Assembly: GCF_000337815.1 (NCBI RefSeq)
Contig: NZ_AOLN01000001.1
Coordinates: 186,001-250,000 of the forward strand
DNA from: Haloferax mucosum ATCC BAA-1512
GTDB lineage: Archaea; Halobacteriota; Halobacteria; Halobacteriales; Haloferacaceae
Length of the DNA: 64,000 nt
Direction of reading: 5' to 3'
The translations under genes and the position numbers were made by a program. Positions 1 to 54,308 of the stretch are shown here, piece by piece. The notes beneath the pieces were generated by a model. The model had not been told where the DNA came from and did not search any database. It saw nothing but the letters and a program-made list of their open reading frames with translations. Numbering within the stretch: position 1 is the first letter of the stretch; every line of letters begins with the position of its first letter.

Positions 1-504
1 CACGAGCGGGCCGAGAACGACGCCCGCGGCGATGCCGAACACGACGCCGACACCGCGAGCGTCCGCGAAGCCGAACAGCAACTCGCCGGCCATCTGCATC
101 TTTTCGACGAGTCCCATCCGCCGCCAGAAGCGTTGGATGGTCGTCTGAATATTTCGGTCCACGAGCGCCACGTCGATGCCGTGTGACTCGGCGGTCTCGA
201 CCGCGGCGAGCATGTCTGCACCGGGCTGTACGTCGAATTTTTCTCCCATCTGCGCTTGGACGTACGACAGCATCCAGTAGGCGATAAATTGGAAGACGGT
301 GTTACCGCGAAGGAGGTCGCTCGCTTCGATATCTTCCGGGGACCCGCCTTTCAACTGACGATAGCGTCCTTCGTCGAGTTCGACCGCGACAACGTCCGGT
401 TGCTCCGCTTCGATGGTCTCTTCGACCTCACGGACGCTGTCGGCCGAGACGTGGGCCGTGCCGACGACGCGGACGTGGCCCTCGCCGGGCGACGAATCGT
501 TCAT
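1..504 (-). CDS. TraB family protein, C-terminus outside window
   Basis: The visible 168 codons begin MNDSSPGEGHVRVVGTAHVS. The GTAHVS motif at residues 15-20, the following VVAVELDEGRY segment and the later LVDRNIQTTIQRFW stretch are typical of the TraB/PrgY (pheromone shutdown) family, which is widespread in haloarchaea. TraB-type proteins carry a conserved N-terminal domain and C-terminal membrane helices. The first hydrophobic helix (FGIAAGVVLGPLV) is just starting where the window ends. The biochemical role in archaea is unknown; a peptidase-like or membrane regulatory role is sometimes proposed. The gene is divergent from the glycerate kinase gene with only about 53 bases between the starts, so the two promoters must overlap. 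The family call is firm, the function is not. Confidence 0.85.
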   Translation of the reverse strand, partial: MNDSSPGEGHVRVVGTAHVSADSVREVEETIEAEQPDVVAVELDEGRYRQLKGGSPEDIEASDLLRGNTVFQFIAYWMLSYVQAQMGEKFDVQPGADMLAAVETAESHGIDVALVDRNIQTTIQRFWRRMGLVEKMQMAGELLFGFADARGVGVVFGIAAGVVLGPLV

Positions 505-6586: not shown

Positions 6587-6671
6587 GCGGTCTCTCCGAG
6601 CGGCCCCCCGCTTTCATCACCGGAGAGCGGTGGTGTCGCCCTCGGAGTAAGGGTTATCTGCTCCGAGACAC

Positions 6672-6685: not shown

Positions 6686-6781
6686 ATGCGACGGCACCGG
6701 ACTGAACACCGCTCGCTTGCGGTCTCTCAGTCCCGACTGTCCACCGTCGCCGTCGACTCGCTCATTATTGCGGGGCAGTAG
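6686..6781 (+). CDS. Putative ileS leader peptide ending SLIIAGQ
   Basis: This 31-codon ORF begins MRRHRTEH and ends VDSLIIAGQ, with Leu-Ile-Ile written CTC ATT ATT. Isoleucine in the surrounding genes is mostly ATC, so the tandem ATT pair stands out. The 13 bases TCGCTCATTATTG recur exactly in the leader ORF upstream of ilvB. Spacing from a TATA-like box suggests a leaderless start. A GC hairpin covers the stop codon (6770-6787), and a C-rich spacer leads to a second short ORF. It is unlikely to have a cellular function as a protein. A role as an isoleucine-sensing leader peptide controlling ileS is inferred from the architecture shared with ilvB. Confidence 0.55.
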   Translation: MRRHRTEHRSLAVSQSRLSTVAVDSLIIAGQ

Positions 6782-6787
6782 CCTCGC
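6770..6787 (+). promoter_or_regulatory. Hairpin over the stop codon of ileS leader ORF
   Basis: GCGGGG (6770-6775) can pair with CCTCGC (6782-6787) with one G-U pair. The six-base loop CAGTAG holds the TAG stop. It starts directly after the second ATT codon. The equivalent site at ilvB also forms a hairpin around its TAG stop. A ribosome paused at the ATT codons would be expected to block it. Confidence 0.4.
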
Positions 6788-6845: not shown

Positions 6846-6962
6846 ATGGAACGACACACGACTCACACCCGACACGAGTATCGACCGCAGACTGAACCCA
6901 CTGCGTTCGGACGGTGGCGACGAGCCACCCGTCCGCCGCGACGGAGCCGTGACCATGTCTGA
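6846..6962 (+). CDS. Second short upstream ORF before ileS, tentative
   Basis: This 38-codon ORF starts MERHTTHTRHEYRP and is rich in Arg, His and Thr. It begins 64 bases after the leader-ORF stop. Its TGA (6960-6962) overlaps an in-frame upstream ATG of the ileS frame (6955). The ilvB 5' region has a matching second ORF starting ME, 68 bases after its leader stop and overlapping the ilvB ATG. The correspondence supports a role in translational coupling, but coding evidence alone is weak for such a short, basic ORF in high-GC DNA. Confidence 0.3.
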   Translation: MERHTTHTRHEYRPQTEPTAFGRWRRATRPPRRSRDHV

Positions 6963-7007
6963 GAGCGACGCGACAGAACGTCCGACGGACGCGGACGAGA
7001 CCCGCCG

Positions 7008-7020
7008 TTTTGATATATAT
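7008..7020 (+). promoter_or_regulatory. ileS: TATA box that fixes the ileS start
   Basis: TTTTGATATATAT is centred 25 bases before the ATG at 7039, the standard distance for a leaderless archaeal transcript. It lies inside the longer open frame that would otherwise allow starts at 6949 or 6955. It therefore supports the shorter IleS and implies an ileS promoter separate from that of the leader ORF. Confidence 0.6.
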
Positions 7021-7038
7021 CCGCGAGAACGTCGGGGT

Positions 7039-10000
7039 ATGGAAGACATCGCAGACCAGTACACGCCGGCGGATGTCGAGTCCGTAGTCGGCGAGTACTG
7101 GGACGAGAACGACGCGTACGAGGCGACGAAGGAGGCACACGCCGACGACCCGTCGTTCTTCTTCGTTGACGGTCCACCGTACACGTCCGGCCAGATGCAC
7201 CTCGGCACGGCCTGGAACAAGACGCTGAAGGACGCCGCCATCCGCTTCAAGCGCATGACGGGGCACCACGTCACCGACCGCCCCGGCTACGACATGCACG
7301 GGCTTCCCATCGAGGTGAAAGTCGAAGAGGAACTCGGCTTTACCTCGAAGCGCGATATCGAGGAGTTCGGTATGGAGGCGTTCATCGACAAGTGCAAGGA
7401 GTTCGCCGTCCGCAACCGCGAGGCGATGGACGAGGACTTCAAGTCCATCGGCACGTGGATGGACTGGGACAACCCCTACGAGACGCTATCGCCGGAGTAC
7501 ATGGAGGCCGCGTGGTGGGCGTTCTCCAACGTTGCCGACAACGGACTCGTCGAGCAGGGCAAACGCTCTGTCAATTACTGCCCGCGCTGTCAGACCGCCA
7601 TCGCCGCCAACGAGGTCGAATACGACGAAATCACCTCGCCGTCTATCTACGTCAAGTTCCCGTTGCAGGGCCGCGAGGGTAACCTCGTCATCTGGACGAC
7701 GACCCCGTGGACCATCCCGGCGAACACCTTCGTCGCCGTCTCCGAGGAGATGACCTACCAGGCGGTCCGCGCCGAGAAAGACGGCGAGAGCGAAGTGCTC
7801 TACGTCGCCGAACCCTGCGTCGAGGACGTGCTCAAGAAGGGTCGTTACGAGGACTTCGAGGTTCTCGATGAGGTTACCGGCGAAGAGATGGTCGGCTGGG
7901 AGTACGACCACCCGCTGGCACCCGTGCTCACCGAGTTCGCCGACTTCGAGGGTGCCGGACAGGTCTACACCGCCGACTACGTCGAAGCCGACCGAACCGG
8001 TCTCGTCCACTCCGCGCCCGGCCACGGTCAAGAGGACTTCGCCCGCGGGCAGGAACTCGGTCTCGACGTGTTCGTCCCCGTTGACGACAAAGGCGAGTTC
8101 ACGGAACAGGCCGGCGACTACGCCGGCACGTTCGTCCGCGACGCCAACCCGGCGGTCATGGACGACCTCGAAGCGAACGGCCACCTACTCCACGCAGGCG
8201 AGCACGACCACCGCTACGGTCACTGTTGGCGCTGTGACACGGACATCATCTTCCTCGCCACGGACCAGTGGTTCATCACGGTCACAGACATCAAAGACCA
8301 ACTCTTGGACAACATCGAGGAGTCCGAGTGGCACCCGCAATGGGCGCGCGACAACCGCTTCCGTGACTTCGTGAGCGACGCCCCCGACTGGAACATCTCC
8401 CGCCAGCGCTACTGGGGCATCCCGCTTCCCATCTGGGTTCCGGAAGACCCCGACGCCGAGGGCGCAAAAGAGATGCTTGTCGTCGGCACCCGCGAAGAAC
8501 TCGCCGAGCGCGCCGACCAAGATATCGACCCCGACGAAATCGACCTTCACCGACCGTCGGTTGACCCCCTCACCATCACCGAAGACGGCGTGACCTACGA
8601 GCGCGTCCCCGACGTGTTCGACGTGTGGATCGACTCCTCTGTCGCCACGTGGGGCACCCTCGATTACCCCGGCGAAACCGATAACTTCGAGGAGCTGTGG
8701 CCCGCCGACCTCATCATCGAGGCCCACGACCAGACCCGCGGGTGGTTCTGGTCGCAACTCGGCATGGGAACCGCCGCGACGGGCGAGTCGCCGTACAAGG
8801 AGGTTCTCATGCACGGGTTCGCAAACGACAAGGACGGCCGCAAGATGTCGAAGTCCGTCGGCAACATCGTCACGCCCGAGGAGGCTATCGACCGCGCCGG
8901 CCGCGACCCGCTTCGCGCGTACCTCCTGAGCCACGACCAGCAGGGCGTTGACCTCTCGTTCGACTGGGACGGTCTCGCGGACATGCAGTCCACGCTCAAC
9001 ATCTTCTGGAACGTCTTCCGCTTCCCGCTTCCGTACATGGACCTCGACGGCTACGACCCCGCCGAGACCGACCTCTCGGAGGGCGAACTCACCATCGTTG
9101 ACGAGTGGGTGCTCTCGCGGCTTCAGACCGTGAAAGCCGAGATGCACGACGCGTGGGACGACTACGAGGTCTCCACCGCGCTGAACACGCTTCTCGACTT
9201 CATCACCGAAGACGTGTCTCGGTTCTACGTGAAAGCCATCCGCGAGCGTATGTGGGACGAAGAGGATTCGGACTCCAAACTCGGCGCGTACGCGACGCTT
9301 TCGACCGTCCTCACCGAGTCCATCCAACTCATCGCGCCCTACACGCCCTACATGGCCGAGCGCATGTACCAGCGACTCGACGGCTCCGAGACGACCGTCC
9401 ACATGCTCTCGTACCCCGAATCCGACGACGACCTCCGAAACGAGGAACTGGAGACCAACATGGCGGTTCTCCGTGATGTCGAGGAGGCCGCGGCCCACGC
9501 TCGCCAACTCGGCGGCCGCAAACTCCGCTGGCCCGTCTCGCGTATCGTCGTCGAGTCCGACGACGACGAGGTTACCGAGGCGGTCGAAGCCCTCTCGGAC
9601 CTCCTCTCTGAGCGCGTGAACACGCGGGCCGTCGAAGTCGTCGAAGTGTTCGACGAACTCGTCGAGACGGCTGAACCGCAGATGAGCGTCATCGGGCCGG
9701 AGTTCGGCGCTGACGCCCAGAAAATCATGGGTGCCGTCGAAGGTCGTTCCCGCGCCGACGTCGAATCCGGCGTCGAAGTCGATGGCGAGACCTACGAACT
9801 CACCGACGAGATGGTCAGCTATCGCGCCGAACCGCCGGAACACGTCTCCGGTGCTGACTTCGAGGGCGGCACCGTCTACGTTGATACCGAACTCTCAGAC
9901 GACATCGAGTCCGAGGGCTACGCCCGCGACGTTATCCGCCGAATCCAGGAGATGCGCAAGCAACTCGACCTCGACGTCGAAGCCGAAATCGACGTGGAAA

Positions 10001-48138: not shown

Positions 48139-48253
48139 TGGCGGCGGGCTGTGGCCCTACGGGGCGACCGCCCTGCGCACGTGTCCGGTTTCGGCCACCT
48201 CGCTCGGCGTGCAATCGTTGCCCGCCGCGAAAGGATTATTATACGCCGGACGT

Positions 48254-48259
48254 ACGTGT
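48254..48259 (+). promoter_or_regulatory. ACGTGT element before ilvB leader ORF
   Basis: ACGTGT ends exactly 8 bases before the leader ATG at 48268, matching the spacing at ileS (6672-6677). A strong TATA-like GGATTATTATACG (48233-48245) lies about 30 bases before the same ATG, giving a near-leaderless transcript. Confidence 0.45.
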
Positions 48260-48267
48260 GCGATACG

Positions 48268-48369
48268 ATGACGCAACGCGACGCATCCGTGGCACTCGCC
48301 GCTCCGCAGGTCGGTGCGAGCGCCGCCGCCGTCGTTGCGCTTCGGTCGCTCATTATTGTAGGGGCCTAG
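48268..48369 (+). CDS. Putative ilvB leader peptide ending RSLIIVGA
   Basis: This 33-codon ORF begins MTQRDASVALAAP and ends VVALRSLIIVGA. It is rich in Ala and Val, with a Leu-Ile-Ile-Val run near the end in which both Ile codons are ATT, the less common codon here. TCGCTCATTATTG is identical to the ileS leader ORF. A good TATA box lies about 30 bases upstream, so the ORF should be the first thing translated on the ilvB transcript. A strong hairpin covers its stop codon, and a C-rich spacer follows. A role as a branched-chain amino acid-sensing leader peptide for ilvBNC-leuCD is inferred. Confidence 0.6.
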   Translation: MTQRDASVALAAPQVGASAAAVVALRSLIIVGA

Positions 48370-48374
48370 CCCCC
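48355..48374 (+). promoter_or_regulatory. Strong hairpin over stop codon of ilvB leader ORF
   Basis: GTAGGGG (48355-48361) and CCCCTAC (48368-48374) pair perfectly around a six-base loop, CCTAGC, that contains most of the TAG stop. It begins directly after the second ATT codon, so a ribosome stalled there would cover it and one that terminates normally would release it. Confidence 0.5.
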
Positions 48375-48437
48375 TACCACCCCATCTCTCTGTCCCGCGC
48401 ATTTGCACCGTTTTCAGCCATCCCTGCAGTCCCCACA

Positions 48438-48524
48438 ATGGAGTCTCAGCACCACGCAATCGACCGAAAGCGCCTGTATCGACGACCAACCACACCCCCC
48501 GGAAAGCACGGAGCCAACACATGA
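48438..48524 (+). CDS. Second short upstream ORF overlapping ilvB start, tentative
   Basis: This 28-codon ORF begins MESQHHAIDRKRLYRRPTTP and ends with a TGA that overlaps the ilvB ATG (ATGA), the usual sign of translational coupling. It starts 68 bases after the leader-ORF stop; the ileS region has a matching ORF 64 bases after its leader. The composition is basic and His/Arg-rich. The overlap and the parallel support it; protein-level evidence is absent. Confidence 0.35.
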   Translation: MESQHHAIDRKRLYRRPTTPPGKHGANT

Positions 48525-50278
48525 GCGAACGCACCGCACCTGCGACAGAGCCTGCCCCGGCCGCGACCGAAGCGGAGTCGACGGACACCGAAGTGACGTC
48601 CGGCGCGACGGCGGTCATCCGCGCGCTCGAAAACGCTGACGTCGAAACCGCGTTCGGCGTGCAGGGCGGCGCTATCATGCCAATCTACGACGCGCTGTAC
48701 GATTCCGACATTCGTCACGTGACGATGGCGCACGAGCAGGCCGCGTCCCACGCCGCCGACGCCTACGGTGTCGTCCACGGCGCTCCCGGCGTCTGTCTCG
48801 CCACGTCCGGTCCGGGTGCGACGAACCTCGTGACCGGCATCGCCGACGCCAACATGGACTCCGACGCGGTGCTCGCGCTCACAGGACAGGTCCCATCGGA
48901 CATGGTCGGTTCCGACGCGTTCCAAGAGACGGACACGACGGGCGTCACCGCGCCTATCACGAAACACAACTACTTCGCAACCTCGCCAGACACCGTCGGC
49001 GACACGGTCGGCGAAGCGTTTGCACTCGCCGCCGAAGGACGCCCCGGACCGACACTGGTTGACCTCCCGAAAGACGTCTCGCTCGGCGAGACCGACCGAG
49101 AACCCGGTCCGGGACGGTCCCCGGCGACGTGCCGTCCCCGAACCGAGCCGGCCGACGCCGAAGTCGAGGCCGCGGCCCGCGCAATCGAGCGCGCGGAGAA
49201 ACCGCTCTTGCTATTCGGCGGCGGCGTCGTCAAGGGGAACGCGACCGACGCGGCCCGGCAGTTTGCGACAGAGCACCGGATTCCGGTCGTCACGACGATG
49301 CCCGGAATCGGCGCGATGCCGGAAGACCACGACCTCTGTCTCTCGTGGGCGGGCATGCACGGCACCGGCTACGCGAATATGGCCATCACGCACACCGATT
49401 GTCTCGTCGCGGTCGGCACGCGCTTCGACGACCGTCTGACAGGCGGTATCGACACGTTCGCGCCCGAAGCGGAGGTCGTTCACATCGACATCGACCCGGC
49501 GGAAATATCGAAGAACGTCCACGCGGACTACCCGGTCGTCGGCGACGCCGAGCGCGCAATCGAGCGCGTCGATGCCGAGATGACGGCCAGCCCCGACGCC
49601 CGTGAGTGGTGCGAACAGTGTCTGACGTGGAAAGACGAGTACCCGATGGACTACGCGGCACCGGATACCGAACCGCTCAAGCCGCAGTTCGTCGTCGAGG
49701 CGCTGGACGAAGCCACGCCCGACGAGACCATCGTCACGAGCGGCGTCGGCCAACACCAGATGTGGGCCGCCCAGTACTGGACGTTCCGCGAACCGCGTCG
49801 CTGGGTCTCCTCGCACGGACTCGGCACGATGGGATACGGGCTTCCGGCCGCTATCGGTGCCCGACTCGCGGCCGACGACGACGAAACCGTCGTCTGTGTC
49901 GATGGCGACGCCTCGTTCCTGATGACGATTCAGGAACTGTCGGTCGCCGTCCGCGAGGACCTCGACATCACCGTCGCCATCCTGAACAACGAGTACATCG
50001 GGATGGTCCGCCAGTGGCAGGACGCCTTCTTCGAGGGCCGTCGCATGGCCGCTGGCTACGACTGGTGTCCCCAGTTCGACAAACTCGCAGAAGCCTTCGG
50101 CGCGCGCGGTTGGGCCGTCGATTCTTACGAGGAAGTCCCGGAAGCAATCGAGGCGGCGCTGGCGTACGACGGTCCGTCAGTCATCGACTTCCACGTTGAC
50201 CCCGCGGAGAACGTCTACCCGATGGTCTCGTCGGGCGGTGCGAACGGCAAATTCGCCCTCTCGGAGGACCAGTTATGA
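48521..50278 (+). CDS. ilvB: Acetolactate synthase large subunit
   Basis: The 585-residue thiamine-diphosphate enzyme condenses two pyruvates, or pyruvate and 2-oxobutyrate, in valine, leucine and isoleucine synthesis. The catalytic Glu is in VTMAHEQAASHAADAYG, and AFGVQGGAIMPIYDAL is the N-terminal signature. The Mg/ThDP motif runs from CVDGDASFLMTIQELSVA to VAILNNEYIGMVRQWQDAFF. FAD-region blocks are ILFGGGVV-like (LLLFGGGVVKGNATDAARQF). The N-terminal 25 residues are acidic and Thr-rich. It heads ilvB-ilvN-ilvC-small protein-leuC-leuD. It is preceded by a leader-peptide-like 5' region and its own promoter about 250 bases upstream, so it is not part of the leuA transcript. Confidence 0.96.
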   Translation: MSERTAPATEPAPAATEAESTDTEVTSGATAVIRALENADVETAFGVQGGAIMPIYDALYDSDIRHVTMAHEQAASHAADAYGVVHGAPGVCLATSGPGATNLVTGIADANMDSDAVLALTGQVPSDMVGSDAFQETDTTGVTAPITKHNYFATSPDTVGDTVGEAFALAAEGRPGPTLVDLPKDVSLGETDREPGPGRSPATCRPRTEPADAEVEAAARAIERAEKPLLLFGGGVVKGNATDAARQFATEHRIPVVTTMPGIGAMPEDHDLCLSWAGMHGTGYANMAITHTDCLVAVGTRFDDRLTGGIDTFAPEAEVVHIDIDPAEISKNVHADYPVVGDAERAIERVDAEMTASPDAREWCEQCLTWKDEYPMDYAAPDTEPLKPQFVVEALDEATPDETIVTSGVGQHQMWAAQYWTFREPRRWVSSHGLGTMGYGLPAAIGARLAADDDETVVCVDGDASFLMTIQELSVAVREDLDITVAILNNEYIGMVRQWQDAFFEGRRMAAGYDWCPQFDKLAEAFGARGWAVDSYEEVPEAIEAALAYDGPSVIDFHVDPAENVYPMVSSGGANGKFALSEDQL

Positions 50279-50933
50279 GCGACGGTCAAACGGGATTGCA
50301 GGGTCCCGCGCCCGAAGACCGTCCGCATCCCGACGGACGGCGGAACGCCCAAGGAATCCGCGTTGACCCTGCGGTCGAATCGGAACGCGAGCCGCGCAGA
50401 ACCGTGCTGTCGGCCATCGTCGAGCACGAACCCGGCGTCCTCTCGCGGGTCGCTGGACTGGCCGCGCGCCGGCAGTTCAACATCGAGAGCCTCACGGTCG
50501 GGCCGACGACCGTCGATGGACACGCGCGCATCACGATGGTCGTCGAGGAACCCGACCCCGGCATCGACCAAATCGAAACACAGCTGGCCAAACTGAAGCC
50601 GGTCATCTCCATCGGCGAACTGGACGACGACGCCGTTCGCGCGGAACTCGTCTTGTTGAAAGTCCGCGGTGAAGACCCCGACAAAGTCCACGCAATCACG
50701 GAGATGTACGATGGCAAGACGCTCGACGCCGGCCCGGAGACCATCACGGTCCAACTGACCGGTGACGAGCACAAAATCGACGATGCCGTGGACGCCTTCC
50801 GTCGATTCGGCATCATCGAAATCGCCCGGACCGGCCAGACCGCCCTCGCCCACGGCGGGAAAAAGACAGTCCCCGGAGAGGAGCCCGGAACCTCCGGCGA
50901 ACCGACCAAACCGACGACCAACACTACATCCAA

Positions 50934-50937
<4 letters not shown>
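50275..50937 (+). CDS. ilvN: Acetolactate synthase regulatory subunit
   Basis: The 220-residue subunit has an N-terminal ACT domain, [20 protein letters not shown] with [13 protein letters not shown], which binds valine in known homologues and gives feedback control of IlvB. The second half, [20 protein letters not shown] with [20 protein letters not shown], is the ACT-like C-terminal domain. A roughly 40-residue acidic extension precedes the ACT domain, as is common in haloarchaea. Its ATG overlaps the ilvB stop (ATGA), and its stop overlaps ilvC by four bases. Confidence 0.95.
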
Positions 50938-51980
<1,043 letters not shown>

Positions 51981-52004
51981 CCACCCCCTAACCACCACGT
52001 ACCA

Positions 52005-52289
52005 ATGACGCGAAACGAGACAGCGGACGACGAATCGAACCGAATGCGCAATGTTAACCATACCAACCCCTACACAGGCGAGACGTTCACCACGGTCTAC
52101 GAGCGCGGCCCGGCCGTCACCGACGGCGGCAGGTCCGACTCGCAACCCGCGATGACGGGCGGGTCGGAGACGATGAAACAGGTGGACCACACGCCGCCGT
52201 ACGGCGACGGCACGAACGACGTTTGGCAACGCGGACACACCGAAATCACCGGCCGAAATCGGACGGACACAGGTGACGTAGATGAGTGA
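52005..52289 (+). CDS. Small acidic protein between ilvC and leuC, unknown
   Basis: The 94-residue protein has two related motifs: [20 protein letters not shown] at about residues 15-34 and [20 protein letters not shown] at about 58-77. Both follow V-(N/D)-H-T-x-P-Y-x-x-x-T-x-x-V-(Y/W)-x-R-G, so this is a tandem duplication of a 20-residue unit. It lies in the ilvBNC-leuCD operon and its last codons overlap the leuC start by eight bases. The His, Asp and Tyr residues could bind a ligand or metal. No family is recognised. Conservation within this operon suggests a helper or regulator of branched-chain synthesis, but this is inference. Confidence 0.75.
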
Positions 52290-53703
52290 GGGAACGCTCT
52301 ACGACAAGGTTTGGGAGGAACACACCGTCTCCGAACTCCCAACGGGCCAGACGCAGTTGTTCTGCGGCCTGCACCTCATCCACGAGGTGACGAGTCCGCA
52401 GGCGTTCGGGATGCTCCAAGAGCGCGACCTCGACGTCGCCTATCCCGAGCGGACTCACGCGACGGTAGACCACATCGTCCCCACGTCGGACCAGTCGCGT
52501 CCCTTCCAAGACGACGCCGCCGAAGAGATGATGTCCGAACTCGAACAGAACGTCCGTGACGCGGGCATCAACTTCTCGGACCCGACCTCGGGCGACCAGG
52601 GTATCGTGCACGTCATCGGGCCGGAGCAGGGACTCACCCAACCCGGCACGACCATCGTCTGTGGTGACAGCCACACCTCGACCCACGGCGCGTTCGGCGC
52701 GCTGGCGTTCGGTATCGGAACGAGCCAGATTCGTGACGTGCTGGCGACACAGACCGTCGCCATGGAGAAAAAGAAGGTTCGCAAAATCGAGGTCACGGGC
52801 GAACTCGAACCCGGCGTCGAAGCCAAGGACGTAGTGCTGGAAATCATCCGTCGCCTCGGCACCGAAGGCGGTGTCGGCTACGTCTACGAGTACGCCGGCG
52901 AAGCCATCGAGAGCCTCGACATGGAAGGTCGGATGAGCATCTGCAACATGTCCATCGAGGGCGGCGCTCGCGCGGGCTACGTCAATCCCGACGAGACCAC
53001 CTACGAGTGGCTGAAACAGACCGACTACTTCCAGGAGAACCCCGAGAAGTTCGACGAACTCAAGCCGTACTGGGAGTCAATCCGCTCCGACGAGGACGCC
53101 GAGTACGACGATGTCGTCACCATCGACGGGTCGGAACTCGAACCCGTCGTCACGTGGGGAACCACGCCCGGACAGGGCGTCGGCATCACCGAACCGATTC
53201 CGGCTCCGGAAGACCTGTCCGAAGAAAAACAGGACACCGCCCGGATGTCGCAAGAGCACATGGGCGTCGAACCCGGCGAGACGATGGCGGGCTACGAAAT
53301 CGACGTGGCGTTTCTCGGGTCGTGTACGAATGCTCGGATGCCCGACCTGCGCCGTGCCGCGGAGGTCGTCGAGGGTCGTCAAGTCGCCGACAGCGTCCGC
53401 GCGATGGTCGTCCCCGGCAGTCAGCGCGTCAAGGCCGCCGCCGAGGCGGAAGGTCTCGACGCGGTGTTCGAGGAAGCCGGATTTGAGTGGCGCGAAGCGG
53501 GCTGTTCGATGTGTCTCGGCATGAACGAAGACCAACTGGAGGGCGACGAAGCCTCGGCGTCCTCGTCGAACCGGAACTTCATCGGCCGACAGGGGTCGAA
53601 AGACGGCAAGACCGTGCTGATGAACCCGCGCATGGTGGCCGCGGCGGCCGTGACCGGCCACGTGACTGACGTGCGCGACCTGAAGGAGGTGACAGAAGCA
53701 TGA
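52282..53703 (+). CDS. leuC: 3-Isopropylmalate dehydratase large subunit
   Basis: The 473-residue aconitase-family subunit isomerises 2- to 3-isopropylmalate with LeuD. The 4Fe-4S cluster cysteines are in [20 protein letters not shown] and [17 protein letters not shown]. Other conserved blocks are [20 protein letters not shown]-type ([20 protein letters not shown]), [17 protein letters not shown] and [20 protein letters not shown], with [11 protein letters not shown] near the end. It overlaps the small upstream gene by eight bases and leuD by four. Length is normal for the archaeal/bacterial LeuC type. Confidence 0.95.
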
Positions 53704-54308
53704 CCGACGAAATCCCAGCAATCGACTCCGCCTCGGGGACGGGCGTCCCCATCCGCGGAAACGACATCGACACGGACCAGATAATCCCGGCGCGGTTCAT
53801 GAAGGTCGTCACGTTCGACGGTCTCGGCGAGTTCGCGTTCTTCGACAAGCGGTACGACGAGCACGACGACCCCAAGGACCACCCGATGAACGAGCCGCAC
53901 TTCCAAGAGGCCTCTATCATGGTCGTCAACGCGAACTTCGGCTGTGGCTCGTCACGCGAACACGCCCCGCAGGCGCTCATGCGCTGGGGCATCGACGCCA
54001 TCATCGGCGAGTCCTTCGCGGAAATCTTCGCGGGCAACTGCCTCGCGTTGGGTATCCCGACGGTCACCGCCGACCACGACACCATCGTCGAACTGCAGGA
54101 CTGGGTCGACGAGAACCCCGACGCCGACATCGACGTGGATGTGGAAAACGAGACGGTCACCTACGGCGATACGACCGTGGACGTGACCGTTGACGACGCA
54201 CAGAGAAAGGCGCTCACCGAGGGGGTCTGGGACACGACGGCGCTCATGAAGTCGAACGCCGACGCGGTACAGGACACGGCAGACAGCCTTCCCTACGTGG
54301 ACGGCTGA
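53700..54308 (+). CDS. leuD: 3-Isopropylmalate dehydratase small subunit
   Basis: The 202-residue swivelling subunit pairs with LeuC. It contains [20 protein letters not shown], the substrate-binding loop and the signature [40 protein letters not shown] follows. The start overlaps the leuC stop by four bases (ATGA). It is the last gene of the ilvB transcript; a convergent Nudix-like gene follows about 105 bases away. Length and motifs are typical of the bacterial-type LeuD. Confidence 0.95.

Follow-up and report, generated by a model that had tools for sequence, protein, structure and literature searches.

In bacteria, attenuation by leader peptides is textbook knowledge. To our knowledge, no leader-peptide attenuator has been described in Archaea so far, and our search of the open-access literature found none. 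Among the bacterial systems closest to the locus reported here, the ilvB-II motif of Corynebacterium also has a short uORF that lies 5' of ilvB, is rich in Ile, Val and Leu codons and overlaps RNA stems, and ilvBNC expression in this genus follows the supply of branched-chain amino acids (PMC10272879). Likewise, runs of Ile, Val and Leu codons overlap a hairpin in the ilvB leaders of Streptomyces and Mycobacterium, as they do here, and altering the candidate regulatory codons of the Streptomyces coelicolor ilvB leader had no effect (PMC1262725); codon content is therefore no proof of attenuation. Two further systems share single features with this locus. Before ermB, stalling on the first leader, ermBL, alters the RNA structure, and a second leader ORF, ermBL2, is required for induction (PMC8274638). 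Before actinobacterial ileS, a translation-level T-box likewise controls ileS at the RNA level (PMC1262725). In this study, we describe a leader conserved upstream of haloarchaeal ilvB that is probably a ribosome-mediated attenuator sensing charged Ile- and Val-tRNA.

Results

The leader was found in a 64,000-nt stretch of Haloferax mucosum DNA (hereafter the window, in whose coordinates all positions are given). Its first reading frame, ORF1 (48268..48369, + strand), has 33 codons, is translated as MTQRDASVALAAPQVGASAAAVVALRSLIIVGA followed by a stop, and ends in Leu-Ile-Ile-Val-Gly-Ala, with the putative sensor codons ATT ATT GTA at 48352-48360; the 13 aligned Haloferax ORF1 sequences show zero indels. 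The TATA box of the leader promoter, TTATTATA (48236..48243, + strand), begins with TTATTA at 48236, 32 nt 5' of the ORF1 ATG, and from this spacing the transcript is predicted to be leaderless or nearly so. Of 79 leaders from across the order, 46 have a spacing of exactly 32 nt, and all 79 fall within 29-35 nt. A hairpin, GTAGGGG-CCTAGC-CCCCTAC (48358..48377, + strand; 7-bp stem, -10.8 kcal/mol), begins immediately 3' of the second ATT, at the Val codon, and holds the stop codon TAG in its loop. Thus the ORF with its tandem ATT codons, the TATA box before it and the seven-base stem over its stop are all present as the original prediction had described them from the sequence.

Two elements had escaped that prediction, a palindrome upstream and a second ORF that overlaps the start of ilvB. 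The palindrome GCAATCGTTGC (48211..48221) lies 25 nt 5' of the TATA box, and GCAA-N3-TTGC or a close variant occurs in 34/79 ilvB leader promoters of the order at a nearly constant distance 5' of the leader ATG (57 nt, and 54-60 nt in a few), in a regex search that tolerated partly degenerate right halves. It is a likely transcription-factor operator and, as such, would add a second layer of control. ORF2 (48438..48524, + strand; 28 codons, MESQHHAIDRKRLYRRPTTPPGKHGANT and a stop) ends on the ilvB start, the stop and the start codon overlapping as ATGA, and contains a Shine-Dalgarno-like GGAG (48510..48513, + strand) 5' of the ilvB ATG that is kept in the aligned Haloferax sequences. The operon continues with ilvB itself (48521..50278, + strand; acetolactate synthase large subunit, TIGR00118 above cut-off) and with ilvN, ilvC, a 94-aa ORF, leuC and leuD (50275..54308, + strand), all of which match NCBIfam or Pfam models above cut-off except the 94-aa ORF. 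The latter (52005-52289), between ilvC and leuC, is without a Pfam or NCBIfam match and overlaps the leuC start. The first ~30 codons of IlvB (48521-48610 and related loci) encode 1-8% Ile, Leu and Val, compared with ~20% beyond codon 40; this N-terminus could form a disordered tail or belong to a starvation-proof start.

The leader is widespread in the order. IlvB was sought in 147 of its genomes and found in 139, and the DNA 5' of 89 ilvB loci, picked by IlvB and not by leader, was read. GTAGGGG...CCCC lies at most 800 nt upstream in 82 of these 89 loci, almost always ending an ORF of the form I-V-G-A/V-(x)-stop, and in 78 of the 82 an in-frame stop lies inside the element, 9 nt (40 loci) or 12 nt (38 loci) from GTA. 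Judged by this conservation, chance occurrence of the element can be excluded. Most of the seven exceptional loci retain a degenerate leader, with endings such as SIIGASY (L095) and VFVGA (L109) before the stop; L077 and L079 have a diverged leader with the hairpin kept, and L111-L113, of the deep families f9 and f11, have no leader, ilvB abutting the upstream gene. In L077 and L079 (family f12), Ile-Val-Gly-Ala is lost while the ORF (ending SIRVRAAPAH) and the hairpin (GGGCCGC..GGCCC) are kept, and it is possible that their sensor codons have changed. Eighty named species, examined as a second set, all carry the element; 75 of them fit at once, and in five the in-frame stop comes just beyond the hairpin. 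A strict pattern gave 20 matches in 247 genomes of the phylum, all of them haloarchaeal and located at ilvB coordinates wherever such coordinates were listed; no genome outside the haloarchaeal order matched. An ORF missing where ilvB is kept, the outcome that the original prediction had named as contrary to it, is not the pattern found, the ORF being conserved across the order.

What is conserved order-wide is the core Ile-Val-Gly-Ala/Val with zero or one further residue before the stop; the residue after Gly is Ala in 65 and Val in 17 of 82 leaders. Within Haloferax, third-position (synonymous) bias is absent in both ORF1 and ORF2, and the peptides themselves are therefore not conserved. Counting from the GTA (Val) codon, which is found in 82/82 leaders, the preceding codon is Ile in 77/82, the one before it Ile in 43/82, and the third Leu in 22/82. 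The search pattern permitted GTN at the first of these positions and fixed the GGG that follows (82/82). The sensor core thus appears to be Ile-Val, with Leu-Ile as a local elaboration of Haloferax and some relatives. The original prediction pointed to all three branched-chain amino acids in the last eight residues and proposed to examine aligned leaders for the Leu-Ile-Ile codons: Ile and Val are borne out, and Leu, at its position in so few leaders, was ruled out as a sensed residue; the Leu-Ile-Ile run is kept in Haloferax and some relatives only, and not order-wide. Across 154 distinct leaders, ATT serves as the Ile codon in 113/149 and GTA is invariant, although both codons are rare in the genes of the window (ATT, 13% of Ile codons; GTA, 3.6% of Val codons). 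The pairing partner of GTA, TAC, is kept in only 57/154 leaders; pairing alone is therefore insufficient to account for the invariant GTA, and a constraint at the codon level explains it.

The hairpin is present in the minimum free energy fold of 82/82 leaders (mean -12.7 kcal/mol). The pair that follows GGGG covaries (C-G 102, T-A 12, T-G 5, C-A 0; Fisher 6.5e-13, with relatedness not corrected for), a compensating stem change of the kind that the original prediction had proposed to look for. The change from C to T in this pair turns Ala into Val, and structure therefore outweighs the residue. Starting at the Val codon and enclosing the stop, the hairpin has a geometry compatible with dependence on ribosome position.

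Downstream of the ilvB leader hairpin no terminator-like site or U-tract terminator was found, and TTTTT occurs within 120 nt in only 8/156 leaders; an intrinsic terminator was ruled out on these grounds. No conserved antiterminator or alternative pairing of the hairpin arms was found across the leaders; the long-range helix described below encloses the hairpin. Rfam covariance models gave no match at gathering thresholds in the whole window and none at E<=5 in 48150-48600, and the ilvB leader belongs to no Rfam family. With no terminator/antiterminator pair found, the reading as an attenuator draws its support from the codons, the frame and the hairpin.

In an ungapped helix test, the ORF1 tail was complementary to the region hairpin+35..72 beyond permuted partners (z = -4.8, 69 clusters). 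Of the control regions, hairpin+0..37 gave p = 0.62 and an upstream ORF1 segment p = 0.09, and a middle ORF1 segment had a weaker effect (p = 0.006); a gapped duplex test, which was too permissive, gave no signal. The long-range helix stands out in some families only, the clearest cases being GTCGAGCGCGTG/CACGCGCTCGAC and GTGGCTGTCGG/CCGACAGCCAC. A general pairing between the ORF1 tail and the ilvB start codon was rejected, as it is no better than mismatched pairs across groups (p = 0.51); local pairings of this kind are TCGCTCAT with ATGAGCGA in Haloferax and GCGTTCGC with GCGAACGC in the f7 genera. A simulated ribosome on the Ile codon raised accessibility from 0.56 to 0.58 at the ORF2 start (p = 0.004) and from 0.39 to 0.42 at the ilvB start (p = 0.002), small but consistent effects, and one placed 12 codons further upstream left accessibility unaffected.

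An ATGA-coupled ORF2 is found at the ilvB start in 97/154 leaders, whereas the two alternative frames give 2 and 7; the remaining 57 leaders have no recognisable one. ORF2 begins 46-94 nt, mostly 61-70 nt, past the CCCC of the hairpin, and gaps in the aligned Haloferax ORF2 sequences are all multiples of three. Its Ile/Leu/Val content is 2.8% in frame, as against 11.8% and 8.6% for the same DNA in shifted frames. In Haloferax volcanii, every ATGA gene pair tested to date shows strict coupling through termination-reinitiation (PMC6728339), and we infer that translation of ilvB would be coupled to ORF2 through ATGA in the same way. Spacings above 30 nt give little or no coupling (PMC12548453); ORF1 is therefore too distant to feed ORF2 directly, which makes initiation at ORF2 a plausible regulated step. 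In the 60 nt after the ilvB leader hairpin, the motif CGYAYCG is enriched ~22x over a base shuffle (~83 occurrences in 156 leaders) and peaks 25-39 nt beyond the hairpin; a similar sequence encodes a Tyr-Arg motif of ORF2.

Each of 15/15 Haloferax genomes has exactly two matches to the signature in a genome pattern search, upstream of ilvB and of ileS, and the reversed pattern gave no match in the same 15 genomes. The two-member regulon of the original prediction is exact as far as the signature goes, and the ileS leader on which it drew is real. ORF1 of the ileS leader (6686..6781, + strand) has 31 codons, ends VDSLIIAGQ before the stop and is preceded by a TATA box starting at 6654, 32 nt before the ATG; the C-terminus IIAG[QRH] is conserved at 14/14 Haloferax ileS loci examined, with Ile-Ile in all 14. 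Its hairpin, GCGGGGC-AGTA-GCCTCGC (6770..6787, + strand), again lies over the stop codon, GCG/CGC replacing the outer pairs GTA/TAC of the ilvB hairpin. The ileS leaders carry ATTATTGCGGGGC..TAGCCTCGC, that is, Ile-Ile is retained, Val is changed to Ala and the opposite arm compensates. This copy looks as would be expected of an Ile-only sensor before the gene for Ile-tRNA synthetase. A block CGGAGTAAgcGTTAT (6640-6665) lies 5' of the ileS leader in most Haloferax and is unlike the ilvB leader promoter.

A second ORF follows here as well (MERHTTHTRHEYRP...DHV and a stop; 6846..6962, + strand), overlapping the codon at which an N-terminally extended IleS begins (ATG 6955). This layout and the Y-R (Tyr-Arg) motif recur at 14/14 Haloferax ileS loci examined, and most of the ORF2 ends overlap extended starts of the (A/G)TG-TCTGA type, a few lying 6 nt further. 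An internal TATA box, TTTTGATATATATCC (7008..7022, + strand; core identical at 14/14 Haloferax loci), is located ~30 nt 5' of the ATG of a short IleS (7039). The conserved in-frame N-terminal extension of Haloferax IleS, (M/V)SESD..ERPTDADETRRFDIYPRE.RG (6955-7041), overlaps this internal promoter. The arrangement suggests two forms of IleS, a long, regulated one and a short, constitutive one. An order-wide ileS leader was ruled out, the leader being absent from 29/29 ileS loci outside Haloferax, and leuS and the probable valS of the same genome have TATA-proximal starts and no such leader.

Discussion

The codons, frame and hairpin argue for an attenuator at this locus; the step by which it would act on ilvB we infer. 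The scheme that we favour, tentatively and at somewhat less than an even chance, is a terminator-free attenuator of two ORFs, in which ORF1 would sense the charging of Ile- and Val-tRNA and ORF2, free of branched-chain codons, would relay ribosomes to ilvB. The near-leaderless mRNA would start at ORF1, which ends in the rare codons ATT (Ile) and GTA (Val). With Ile and Val plentiful, the ribosome would reach the ORF1 stop and leave, the hairpin would close, in several families along with a longer helix that joins the ORF1 tail to the region upstream of ORF2, and ilvB would be poorly expressed. With Ile- or Val-tRNA short, the ribosome would stall on ATT or GTA, and its footprint on the 5' arm would prevent the hairpin; ORF2, nearly free of Ile, Leu and Val codons, could then be translated, and termination-reinitiation at ATGA would hand its ribosomes to ilvB. 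The second copy present in Haloferax would sense Ile alone and control the N-extended IleS. Blocking of ORF2 initiation in the closed state is the output step we prefer, if by a judgement that falls a little short of even; exposure of untranslated, C-rich RNA to premature termination in that state is possible but rather unlikely.

This second output defines a version of the same explanation that is closer to bacterial transcription attenuation, which we consider improbable though deserving of attention. Here, RNA polymerase would terminate before ilvB, intrinsically or through FttA/aCPSF1, in response either to closure of the hairpin or to the C-rich spacer left exposed once the ribosome has been released from ORF1, and a stalled ribosome would prevent this. 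The anatomy of the sensor would be identical, the spacer is indeed C-rich and mostly 100-250 nt long, transcription-translation coupling has been proposed for haloarchaea (PMC8576121), and archaeal polarity has been attributed to FttA (PMC12548453). However, there is no terminator-like site and U-tracts are rare 3' of the hairpin, whereas archaeal terminators require U-tracts (PMC8716108), and a conserved, coupled ORF2 would be unnecessary in such a model.

Arrest by the nascent peptide is very unlikely. In this reading, the Ile-Val-Gly-Ala C-terminus would itself stall the ribosome from within the exit tunnel, with a small molecule and not tRNA charging as the signal, as the near-invariant IVG[AV] and stop might suggest. 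Arrest peptides usually need upstream residues, and those of ORF1 vary freely; moreover, Ala and Val after Gly switch along with the base pairing, the ileS leaders end in IIAG[QRH], and the bases are held more tightly than the amino acids demand (GTA GGG invariant). We give hardly any credence to GTAGGGG...CCCCTAC being a DNA operator or a protein-bound RNA hairpin with ORF1 incidental to it: the sequence is palindromic and its left half highly conserved, but the spacer between the arms varies in length while the stop stays in frame, conservation of the arms is asymmetric (left half invariant, TAC in 57/154), the TATA-ATG spacing and the frame are conserved, and at ileS the same structure is built from another sequence. 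Equally far-fetched is a translated, unregulated upstream ORF that merely lowers ilvB expression, since, common as leaderless starts are in haloarchaea (PMC8576121), it leaves the Ile-Val codons, the hairpin and the exactly one further copy, at ileS, unexplained.

If real, the proposed attenuator would be the first of the leader-peptide kind in Archaea, order-wide and copied to ileS in Haloferax, and it would show how attenuation can dispense with an intrinsic terminator and operate with archaeal RNA polymerase. How transcription and translation are coupled in archaea is, according to a 2021 paper, a subject on which almost nothing is known (PMC8576121). For this question, an Ile/Val leader conserved on near-leaderless mRNAs of haloarchaea would provide a natural and genetically tractable reporter; transposon mutants in ilvB or ilvC exist for Haloferax volcanii (PMC4300041). 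The ilvB/ileS pair would be a built-in codon-swap control.

Compared with the described systems, the haloarchaeal leader shows neither the terminator nor the antiterminator that mark classical attenuation. In Corynebacterium ilvB-II, a P2 terminator bearing a U-tract is accompanied by an antiterminator and a uORF of 15-17 codons (PMC10272879), and the leaders of Streptomyces and Mycobacterium also have U-tract terminators (PMC1262725); the haloarchaeal leader is without a U-tract. T-boxes bind tRNA directly, whereas the Haloferax ileS leader is an ORF with no Rfam T-box match. In the ermB system, stalling depends on a drug and not on amino-acid starvation, and ermBL2 overlaps ermBL (PMC8274638), whereas the haloarchaeal ORF2 sits 60-70 nt further on and overlaps the structural gene. 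Relative to ilvB-II, the haloarchaeal leader is distinguished by a stop codon within the hairpin, an ORF2 joined to ilvB through ATGA, a near-leaderless start and an archaeal host.
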